Position numbers and translations under genes: made by a program. Positions 35,211 through 37,630 of a stretch of 64,000 nucleotides of DNA are shown here, piece after piece. The number at the start of each line of letters is the position of its first letter. Within the stretch, counting starts at the first letter, position 1. The stretch covers positions 372,001-436,000 of the forward strand of contig NZ_RBIM01000002.1 in NCBI RefSeq assembly GCF_003634045.1. Reading direction: 5' to 3'. The notes beneath the pieces were generated by a model. That model was not told the DNA's origin. It saw nothing but the letters and a program-made list of their open reading frames with translations, and made no database searches. Origin of the DNA: Maricaulis maris. GTDB lineage: Bacteria; Pseudomonadota; Alphaproteobacteria; Caulobacterales; Maricaulaceae.

Positions 35211-36098
35211 GTGACGACATCAAGCTTGATCCGTCGCGCGCTGGCGCTGGTATTCCTGACCGCTTTGGTGATCGGGGGCAGCGGTGCCTTCTTTGCGCTG
35301 CAGGCACGCGCCTTCGACGAGGCCACGCGCGAATCGCGCCTTTTGCTGGCGACTGCCCAGGCTATCCGCGCCTACACATCTGACCAGGTCGCACCGCTGG
35401 CCTACACAGCGTCGAGCGACACCTTTCATCCGGAAACGGTGCCGTCATTCGCGGCGCAAACAGTCTTCGCCGAAGTTTCCAGCGCCGACCTTGCCTATAC
35501 CTATCGCGAGGTCGCCCTTAACCCGACCAGCCCCACCGACCGGCCGGTTCCGTTCGAAACCGAATTGATCAACGCCTTTCGTCAGGATGACGCCCTGACC
35601 GAGCGGTCCGGCCGCTGGCGCCGCGGCGGACATGAACTGTTCTACCTGGCCCGTCCAATCCGGATCGAACAGGAAGCCTGTCTGAGCTGCCACAGCACGC
35701 CCGACCAAGCGCCGCCCGCCATGGTCGAACGCTATGGCACTGAGAACGGGTTCGGATGGCAGATGGGCGAGACCATCGGCCTGCAGATCGTGACCGTGCC
35801 GATCGAACAGGAAATGCGCGGCATGTTCGAACTGGTGCTGGCACTGGGCACCGGCCTGCTTGTCATCTTCCTGGCCGGATACGCCGCGACATCAAACACC
35901 ATCAATCGTCAGCTCGTCGTCCCGCTGCAGGCACTGACCGCGCGGGCTGAAGATGTCTCGGTTGGTATTGATGACGGCACGCCCCTGCCCGACGACGGTG
36001 CAAGCGAACTCAAACGACTGTCGGCAAGCATCGAACGCCTCCGACGCAGCCTTCGCCGCGCACTTGCCGACCGAAACGACCACGAGGGGCAGGCGTAA
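35211..36098 (+). CDS. Membrane sensor with Tll0287-like (DUF3365) haem-type domain and HAMP
   Basis: A 295-residue protein: membrane segment 11-30, periplasmic Tll0287-like domain (about 35-200), second membrane segment 207-228, then a HAMP-like linker (about 229-282) ending the protein. The periplasmic domain contains CLSCH (157-161), a CxxCH motif for covalent haem c, together with RPIRIEQEACLSCH and the downstream PPAMVERYG typical of the family. No kinase, cyclase or methyl-accepting domain follows, so the output must go to a partner. The GTG at 35211 with GGGGA in front is chosen over TTG at 35205. Its stop overlaps the ATG of the mechanosensitive channel (TAATG), making the channel the obvious partner. 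Confidence 0.85.
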   Translation: MTTSSLIRRALALVFLTALVIGGSGAFFALQARAFDEATRESRLLLATAQAIRAYTSDQVAPLAYTASSDTFHPETVPSFAAQTVFAEVSSADLAYTYREVALNPTSPTDRPVPFETELINAFRQDDALTERSGRWRRGGHELFYLARPIRIEQEACLSCHSTPDQAPPAMVERYGTENGFGWQMGETIGLQIVTVPIEQEMRGMFELVLALGTGLLVIFLAGYAATSNTINRQLVVPLQALTARAEDVSVGIDDGTPLPDDGASELKRLSASIERLRRSLRRALADRNDHEGQA

Positions 36099-37630
36099 TG
36101 TTCCGCCTCGCACTGCTCGCCTTCATGACCTTGCTCGCCTGGGTCGTGCACGCTTGGGTGGGTAGCAATCTTCTCTTCGCAGACACCGAATTGCCGGGCC
36201 TGATCAAACTGACCGCCGGCGCGCTGACCGCGCTTCTCGTGACTTTCATCCTGGTCGGCATCATCCTCGAGATCGGCCTGCGCCAAAGCCTGCGGATCGA
36301 GCCCGTCGGCGCCCAGCGTGTCGTGATTTTCATAATCGTCACTTTCGCTATCAGCGCCATCGCGCTCAAGCTGATGGGCTTCGACATCACAACGATCCTA
36401 ACCACCTCGGCCTTGCTGACCGCCATTATCGGGTTCGCGCTTCAACCGACACTGGGCGGGCTTTTTTCTGGTATCGCCCTGCAGCTCGACAGCCATCTCA
36501 AACCCGGTGACGGCATCCGCTACAAGGGTGAGAACGTCAAAATCGAGTCCATGAACTGGCGGTCAGTAGTGGGCCGCAAGCGCGACGAAACGCTGATCAT
36601 CATTCCCAATTCCAGCCTCGCGGGCGAACCGGTCGAGATTTATCCCAATGATCGACCGGTCTGGAGCATTTGCCGGTTTTCCGCCCCGATGAACTGGCCA
36701 CCACAATTCATCTCAGATCTCGTGCGCCGTGCTGTTGCCGACCTCGACTATGTCGACGCAGCGGCCCCTGTCATGGTTCTACCGGAGTCGGAAAACGCCG
36801 AAGATGGTCAGATCGGGTATCGCGTGCGCTACAAGGTCGCGTACTATTTCGAGACCCCCGAACTGGACTGCGAAGTCCTTCGCCGACTGTGGTATTGCTT
36901 CCAGCGCGAGGGGATTCCGCTCACCGCATCGCGCCTGTTGCCAGCCTCACTCCGTGAACGCCGCAGCGACATGCAAGTCTGGCCCGGGGGTGCGACACCG
37001 GAAACACTCCTTTGCGCGTTGGCTGCAAACGCCGGACATTCGCTGACCGAGGCCGAGCACGACCAGCTGGCCCATGCCTTGAGCAACCATGCCCGCATTC
37101 TCCTGTTCGGACCGAATGAGCGCATCGCCCTGCCTGCCGGTCTTGCGCCCGGCCCGCTCCTGCTGGTCGCCGGCTCCGTTCATGGTCAAGAACGCGGCTT
37201 CTCGGAACGACGCATGGTCGGTGATCTTCCTCCCCAAGGCTCGGCACGGCACTACTACCAGCGCCTGTCACCGAACGCCGTCATGCACCAGATGGCCGTC
37301 CTGCTGGCCGATCAGATTGGCCCCTATGCCGAGCGCGTTGTGAGCCAAGCGGCGATCAAGGCGCCATGCCTGCCAAGCGCCGCGATCCAGTGCGCCGCGC
37401 ATATCGACGACGCGCAAGACCGGGCCGCTTTCCTTGCCGTCGCCAACGCGTTGATCCAGACGTCCGACATCGACAAGATCGTCTTCACCACAGCGCCGGG
37501 CGTTGCGGGAACGACCGTGGCGATGCCGGCCTGCCGCGCCGTCGACGAAGCTGTCTTCCTGGCGCTTGATCCGGCCGCCGTCTGCGCATTTGATGCGATA
37601 TCTCCCCGCTTGCTGACACCACGGAGCTGA
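36098..37630 (+). CDS. MscS-family mechanosensitive channel with C-terminal extension
   Basis: A 510-residue inner-membrane protein. About four membrane segments occupy the first 140 residues; the pore-lining helix and the start of the beta domain are readable in TAIIGFALQPTLGGLFSGIA and LKPGDGIRYKGENVKIESMNWRS. The MscS cytoplasmic domain runs to about 290. The last 200 residues are not part of ordinary MscS; the stretch LLFGPNERIALPAG to LLLVAGSVHG has the spacing of a degenerate cyclic-nucleotide-binding beta roll, as in gated MscS relatives. It shares one base with the haem-type sensor gene. The channel call is secure; gating by a ligand or by the sensor is inference. Confidence 0.87.
   Translation: MFRLALLAFMTLLAWVVHAWVGSNLLFADTELPGLIKLTAGALTALLVTFILVGIILEIGLRQSLRIEPVGAQRVVIFIIVTFAISAIALKLMGFDITTILTTSALLTAIIGFALQPTLGGLFSGIALQLDSHLKPGDGIRYKGENVKIESMNWRSVVGRKRDETLIIIPNSSLAGEPVEIYPNDRPVWSICRFSAPMNWPPQFISDLVRRAVADLDYVDAAAPVMVLPESENAEDGQIGYRVRYKVAYYFETPELDCEVLRRLWYCFQREGIPLTASRLLPASLRERRSDMQVWPGGATPETLLCALAANAGHSLTEAEHDQLAHALSNHARILLFGPNERIALPAGLAPGPLLLVAGSVHGQERGFSERRMVGDLPPQGSARHYYQRLSPNAVMHQMAVLLADQIGPYAERVVSQAAIKAPCLPSAAIQCAAHIDDAQDRAAFLAVANALIQTSDIDKIVFTTAPGVAGTTVAMPACRAVDEAVFLALDPAAVCAFDAISPRLLTPRS

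Follow-up and report, generated by a model that had tools for sequence, protein, structure and literature searches.

The archaeal receptor Af1503 has long been used as a structural model of HAMP. According to the available passages of the source, HAMP is the sole cytosolic part of this receptor, and its gene is translationally coupled to that of Af1502, a four-helix STAC protein in which the motif LGPx(x)A connects the first helix to the second (PMC4834066). In the SLC5-STAC kinases CbrA and CrbS, as far as they are described in the part of the source available, a small four-helix domain is likewise placed after a membrane input and before a signalling output (PMC13022988). Among haem receptors, the domain DUF3365 has been assigned to the c-haem Cache domains; a P. 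azotoformans protein that has two membrane helices and a HAMP binds nitric oxide (NO) tightly without forming a stable complex with oxygen, and the behaviour of a stand-alone sCache_heme with Cys/His ligation is closer to that of a redox protein (PMC12889525, passages available). A locus of Maricaulis maris combines elements of these systems. Within the window, a stretch of 64,000 nucleotides (positions 372,001 to 436,000 of contig NZ_RBIM01000002.1, assembly GCF_003634045.1) from a host genome of 3.57 Mb, the gene of a c-haem Cache sensor that ends after HAMP overlaps by one base the gene of an MscS-type channel, and the C-terminal part of that channel contains a STAC-like domain. The same domain recurs in kinases, cyclases and a TIR protein encoded beside related sensors. 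We consider it somewhat probable that these genes constitute a split receptor-effector system, in which the haem sensor addresses an exchangeable effector through the STAC-like docking domain and coupling takes place directly via that domain.

The sensor gene (35211-36098, forward strand) has a GTG start and a TAA stop and encodes 295 amino acids. Hydropathy places a first membrane helix at residues 9-32 (35235-35306) and a second at residues 201-228 (35811-35894). The periplasmic Tll0287/DUF3365/sCache_heme domain occupies residues 32-197 (35304-35801; PF11845, E 1.8e-39) and carries, by motif reading, the c-type haem attachment motif CLSCH at residues 157-161 (35679-35693), whose pair of cysteines are the only ones in the protein. 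A HAMP follows at residues 231-282 (35901-36056), scoring 27.7 bits with PF00672 against a cut-off of 25 and diverged in that it does not possess the DE[IFLV] signature. A Pfam scan found no family C-terminal to HAMP in this sensor, neither a histidine kinase output of the two-component type nor any other output domain. The initial annotation, made from the sequence alone, had described a DUF3365 domain with CLSCH and two membrane helices in a protein without an output domain, and this description is borne out. The order of parts, a Cache domain with CXXCH, two membrane helices and a HAMP, is that of P. azotoformans WP_033902098. Searches for the gene neighbourhood of that protein in 25 genomes of one genus and 248 of a family, presumed to be the Pseudomonadaceae, found nothing, a result of no evidential value. 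The available passages of the paper on sCache_heme differ from the arrangement seen here in describing fusions and stand-alone forms and naming no partner gene, and the words 'mscs' and 'operon' occur nowhere in its text (PMC12889525).

The stop codon of the sensor gene (TAA, 36096-36098) and the start codon of the channel gene (ATG, 36098-36100) share one base within TAATG (36096-36100), so that the one-base overlap with an MscS-family gene was also correctly read at the outset. The channel gene (36098-37630, forward strand) encodes 510 amino acids, ending in the region that contains the STAC-like domain, and matches PF00924 at residues 120-179 (E 3.8e-9). An AlphaFold2 model of the channel had a mean predicted local distance difference test score (pLDDT) of 77.7, and its residues 1-279, the MscS module (36098-36934), matched solved structures of MscS and YnaI (Foldseek E 4.6e-13; VIA Z up to 12.5). 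The beta-domain match and the fold together place the protein in the MscS superfamily; heptameric assembly and a conductance gated by tension or ligand are predicted.

The feature that best explains the pairing sits in the C-terminal 230 residues or so of the channel, a region that the initial annotation left unmentioned. The model shows strands at residues 332-363, four helices at 392-453 and further strands at 462-490. The first strands belong to the first half of a degenerate beta-roll resembling those that bind cyclic nucleotides (residues 330-382, 37085-37243; model strands from 332), and the last to its second half (residues 457-501, 37466-37600), from which the phosphate-binding cassette is missing. 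Between the two halves lies the inserted four-helix STAC-like domain, identified by hits of hidden Markov models (HMMs), at residues 392-453 (37271-37456) with the motif IGPYA at 37316-37330. After excision of these helices, the C-termini of 17 channels paired with such a sensor aligned by hhalign to the cyclic-nucleotide-binding domains (CNBDs) of six MscS relatives of the bacterial cyclic-nucleotide-gated (bCNG) type, all lacking a sensor and all with PF00027 (P 3.8e-9). The score was 56.3, compared with at most 13.4 in 60 column shuffles. Both halves of the beta-roll also aligned separately, and in order, to successive parts of the CNBD (P 5.4e-6 and 4.8e-5).

No cassette of the form GE...R[ST]A was found downstream of the inserted domain in any of the 17 paired channels, whereas five of the six unpaired PF00027 relatives have one. 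A stricter cassette pattern occurred in a single paired channel, that of locus L035, at residue 327 and thus ahead of the domain, and PF00027 was not found in the window channel by a Pfam scan. Since the two halves flank the helices in CNBD order and the cassette is gone, the docking domain seems, from sequence comparison, to be an insertion into what was once a nucleotide-binding domain and is apparently unable to bind nucleotide now. Like bCNG channels, the paired channels consist of an MscS module followed by a CNBD-derived beta-roll; unlike them, they have this CNBD split by the STAC-like domain and lack the nucleotide cassette. The descent of the C-terminal region from a CNBD would also suit a channel that is still gated by cyclic nucleotides, in which the insertion is structural and the sensor of little importance. 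The contrast in cassette counts speaks against such a channel, as does the agreement between sensor and channel trees described below, and we regard this explanation as very unlikely.

Relatives of the sensor were obtained from a scan of species genomes, in which the best 80 of at least 574 were retained by similarity to the window sensor. An MscS channel gene comes next in 16 of these 80 loci, and one of the 16, L100, ends within the channel gene. The other 15, together with the window and L035, yield 17 complete sensor-channel pairs, where L034, apparently the same as L095, was counted once. All 17 have both genes on the same strand, separated by -41 to +16 nucleotides, given the start codons chosen in this analysis. 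Their hosts are Alpha- and Betaproteobacteria, apart from that of L158, which is assigned to Proteobacteria only. Among 385 genomes of the class, two other near-full-length matches to the channel were found, L034 with 31% and L035 with 28% identity, and both have a relative of the sensor immediately upstream. The initial annotation had staked its proposal on a neighbourhood conserved beyond close relatives, and such a neighbourhood is what these pairs display. No viral relatives were found, a scan of viral contigs having yielded 21 matching stretches of which none was a relative by tblastn.

The channel-paired sensors form one clade (18 of 18, support 100/99), which was recovered in 200 of 200 bootstrap trees; when partner labels were shuffled on the sensor tree, 16.4 changes were required on average. 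Distances in the sensor and channel trees were correlated with r 0.94 (136 distances from 17 pairs), a value that none of 2000 permutations reached, bearing in mind that shared ancestry alone also raises r. Agreement of this kind would be expected of pairs whose members travel and evolve as a unit. Chance adjacency was rejected on the strength of the conserved neighbourhood, the single clade and the agreeing trees, and the sensor and channel genes very probably form one functional unit.

None of 18 other genomes of the genus showed the sensor-channel pair. The listed channel matches in these genomes cover part of the MscS module only, and the PF11845 match in the single genome that has any lies in a different and longer frame of 830 amino acids. 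Vertical inheritance within the genus as the sole route was therefore rejected. As the pair was not seen in these 18 genomes, horizontal transfer or repeated loss is needed, and the window pair has probably been acquired by horizontal transfer or often lost.

The element common to the proteins encoded downstream of these sensors is a domain of approximately 60 residues with the motif IGPxA, present in one to three copies each. It was found 3' of the sensor in 75 of the 80 nearest loci (74 by HMM in three forward frames and L155 by eye), a figure that describes near relatives and not the whole PF11845 family. Four of the five loci without the domain are on contigs that end 340 to 1003 nucleotides past the sensor; the fifth is L129. 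Assignment of the downstream proteins by Pfam, from which L100, L105, L114, L129, L150 and L161 were excluded, gave 50 kinases, 15 MscS channels, six nucleotidyl cyclases and one TIR protein (n = 74), and the protein downstream in L166 had kinase and cyclase matches together.

An HMM constructed from the non-channel effectors only recognised the domain in the window channel with 26.9 bits and in that of L035 with 24.5 bits. Of the other 15 complete paired channels, 14 scored at least 20.1 bits and the remaining one, L139, 13.6 bits. With the same model, 19 of the 37 MscS frames lacking a sensor gave any match, none above 1.7 bits, and no shuffled sequence among 340 exceeded 5.3 bits.

In the 385 class genomes the domain was detected in nine genes of seven genomes, and all nine lie beside a sensor of this type, one of these sensors being that of L081, in which CXXCH is replaced by CATCY. 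For the opposite direction, from sensor to domain, 20 of the 74 PF11845 places in the class genomes were examined, many of the 74 lying in longer frames. All five strong domain genes from 398 genomes of the phylum, a sample partly overlapping the 385, were also beside a sensor; weak matches in this search (E 2.1e-4 to 0.05) were taken as noise, and none of five examined adjoined a sensor. Since scoring was limited to 16 candidates per genome, weak copies of the domain were possibly missed. On plasmids, eight of 11 matching records were examined, comprising five of eight proteobacterial and three cyanobacterial records. In all five proteobacterial cases the gene after the sensor bears the annotation serine/threonine-protein kinase, and all five kinases contain the domain. 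Comparison of 63 domain copies with curated libraries produced scattered weak matches, none of which recurred in more than two of the 63 (best E 0.007 for Pfam and 0.0037 for NCBIfam); the window copy matched SecDF_P1_head at 0.017, below the family cut-off. Because these matches are weak, scattered and non-recurrent, the domain was treated as lying outside Pfam and NCBIfam.

These distributions bear upon the alternative that the two genes are only co-transcribed, both products being useful under nitrosative or redox stress without touching one another, and that the domain binds a third partner such as a lipid, a nucleotide or a protein. Overlapping genes would equally fit plain co-expression; the domain also stands C-terminally in kinases, and HAMP is degenerate in the sensors of the channel type. 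Co-transcription without contact does not, on the other hand, account for an effector series whose constant feature is the domain and not the enzyme, for the restriction of strong domain copies to the vicinity of these sensors in both genome samples, or for sensors that have no other output. This alternative is rather unlikely.

Several of the kinase-type loci have neighbours that merit description. Four of the five plasmid pairs (L220, L221, L225 and L226) adjoin type VI secretion genes, namely tssB/tssC/hcp, tssM/tagF/tssH or tagF/tssM, to which Caballeronia adds a PP2C phosphatase. The neighbourhood looks as if a haem sensor fed kinase-phosphatase control of secretion. A TssF-like frame, named by eye, is located upstream in L077 (551-2410). 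The frames directly upstream of the kinase-type sensors in L074 (3493-4548), L076 (3073-4377), L077 (3501-4748) and L081 (5513-7678) were named by eye as secreted, caspase-like proteins that end in a peptidoglycan-binding part, and a peptidoglycan-binding protein is annotated at the corresponding upstream position in L219. Among the other effectors, a protein of Massilia arenosa (L151, 2642-3322) carries TIR and the STAC-like domain and follows a haem sensor, which hints at an immune-like output, or one related to nicotinamide adenine dinucleotide, under haem control. The Myxococcaceae effectors of L143 (4264-6009) and L157 (7881-9623) have three copies of the domain each; that of L143 yielded no Pfam hit and appears by eye to be a degenerate cyclase. 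A plasmid of Kovacikia minuta (L223, 3953-5530) encodes sCache_heme and HAMP fused to a cyclic-nucleotide-binding domain that is apparently intact by eye, a one-piece echo of the split system.

The isolated domain of the window channel was modelled by AlphaFold2 with a pLDDT of 95.8 as four helices (5-20, 24-34, 38-46 and 52-66), with IGPYA at 20-24 joining helices 1 and 2, which is the arrangement of helices and motif that characterises STAC. As in Af1503-Af1502, a receptor ending in HAMP, which scores above the cut-off in the window sensor, is directly coupled to a gene with a four-helix [L/I]GPx(x)A domain. Unlike that pair, in which Af1502 is a stand-alone protein of 68 residues according to the passages available (PMC4834066), the domain here forms part of a channel or an enzyme, and a c-haem Cache protein serves as the sensor. 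In having a small four-helix domain between membrane input and signalling output the system resembles CbrA and CrbS, which differ, in the part of the source available, in being single polypeptides with a transporter as input (PMC13022988). The context from which STAC takes its name, an SLC5 transporter together with two-component domains, was not encountered; kinase, MscS, cyclase and TIR take its place. In its native order the domain profile scored at most 10.6 bits against the STAC of CbrA and CrbS. The idea that the CbrA/CrbS STAC is a circularly permuted form of this domain was considered and dropped: the permuted profile matched one CrbS-like protein with 12.6 bits over nearly its whole length, but an arbitrary order scored 21.3 bits with the same protein. 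The top fold matches include C-terminal helices of the AAA+ proteins CbbQ (Z 6.9) and NorQ (Z 6.7), a likeness that may reflect simply a common four-helix arrangement.

The haem attachment motif CXXCH is present in all 81 sensors compared (the 80 loci and the window), and none of the 81 has a second cysteine within 125 residues upstream of it; for these reasons the sensors fit the signalling type. The window sensor itself has the membrane helices and a HAMP just above the cut-off and is without a distal Cys ligand, as the signalling form requires. CcmB is encoded in the host genome, which makes maturation of haem c plausible. On this analysis the window sensor is predicted to bind haem covalently and probably senses NO or redox state. 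A kinase-paired sensor in L081 (4650-5747) has CATCY instead of CXXCH, so that the histidine is gone; it is possibly a haem-less derivative and was excluded from the query alignments.

Redox roles have been proposed for stand-alone sCache_heme proteins in the available passages of PMC12889525, and signalling in the reverse direction might be envisaged, with the channel acting on the haem protein through the state of its membrane and cytoplasmic parts, for example by anchoring it or by feeding tension into what would be a redox protein, while the sensor serves as the effector. The HAMP-bearing member described in the same passages is, however, a signalling-type NO binder (PMC12889525). The partners of the other types (kinase, cyclase and TIR) have the appearance of outputs and not of inputs, and the distal Cys ligand of the redox type is missing in all 81 sensors. 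We judge the reverse direction to be highly improbable.

Under the split receptor-effector arrangement, haem ligation or a redox change would alter the periplasmic Cache domain, and this change would be passed through the second membrane helix to the terminal HAMP region, steps that follow from known families. The end of the sensor would then contact the STAC-like docking domain on the cytoplasmic side of the channel, and this contact would alter gating. With its CNBD split and the cassette lost, the channel would have exchanged control by a nucleotide for control by the adjacent haem sensor. The docking domain would, in the sister systems, place an enzyme (Ser/Thr kinase or cyclase) or a TIR protein under a similar sensor. 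Because the domain is constantly associated with these sensors across unrelated effectors, we infer that sensor and domain touch; the haem ligand, as well as the sense and direction of the gating change, are proposed with the same reserve. The initial annotation had suggested that HAMP movement controls the channel. The part of this idea that stands is a conserved, co-diversifying pair with a sensor that has no output of its own; a coupling of HAMP to the pore has become less probable, and the system is wider than a sensor and a channel. As kinases, cyclases and TIR also carry the domain, coupling is more probably between the cytoplasmic end of the sensor and the shared domain than between HAMP and the pore.

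Several observations weigh against the split receptor-effector arrangement, and the first concern HAMP. The terminal HAMP of the initial annotation holds for the window sensor, but the channel-paired sensor of L034 scores 23.0 bits with PF00672, below the cut-off, and that of L079 gives no match, compared with 39 to 53 bits in five kinase-paired sensors scanned. The signature DE[IFLV] is found in the last 75 residues of none of the 18 channel-paired sensors, as opposed to 58 of 64 other sensors. In view of the weak scores and the lost signature, contact in the channel branch may be made by something other than a normal HAMP. As judged from sequence, the type of partner is written in the cytoplasmic end of the sensor, which is atypical as a HAMP in the channel branch; this diverged end represents either a specialisation or an argument against a normal HAMP mechanism. 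The stoichiometry is also awkward, since a dimeric HAMP would face a heptameric MscS. Moreover, the sensor of L129 has no domain gene within 3.6 kb downstream, and one cyanobacterial plasmid sensor, ending after HAMP by eye, has no adjoining domain gene. The relation to Af1502, finally, is indistinct. The profile match fell below significance (E 0.063 over 24 residues), and in fold Af1502 ranked sixth among the listed matches (VIA Z 5.1, root-mean-square deviation 2.9 over 61 residues). Among solved structures, the profile matched two UTP-glucose uridylyltransferases best (E 0.0044 and 0.024), over the second half of the domain only; as these rank ahead of Af1502, the link to it cannot rest on sequence alone. 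With an insignificant sequence match, an indistinct fold match and the SLC5 context lacking, membership of STAC is not proven, and the domain is labelled STAC-like and not filed as STAC.

Known relatives exist for each of the parts, that is, for the sensor, the HAMP-only layout, the STAC-like fold and the bCNG channel. No description was found in the open-licence literature searched of their combination, of exchangeable effectors with this domain in common or of a channel controlled by a receptor of this kind, in agreement with the initial annotation, to which the sensor-channel pairing was not known as a described system. The evidence leaves evenly balanced the broader proposal of a bacterial signalling class in which c-haem receptors with a terminal HAMP would work in trans through a docking domain common to exchangeable effectors, with the window branch as a receptor-operated MscS channel gated by NO or redox state that arose when this domain entered a cyclic-nucleotide-binding domain. 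Should this hold, it would hint at how HAMP-only receptors of archaea produce an output; for one of them, Af1503, the available passages name none other than the coupled STAC protein (PMC4834066). Signalling in trans from HAMP-only receptors would become directly testable, because the bacterial outputs, namely current, phosphorylation and cyclic nucleotide, are measurable. It would also mean that a channel of the mechanosensitive type can be governed by a separate gas or redox receptor, and that a ligand-gated channel may be re-wired by a docking domain inserted into its ligand-binding domain.

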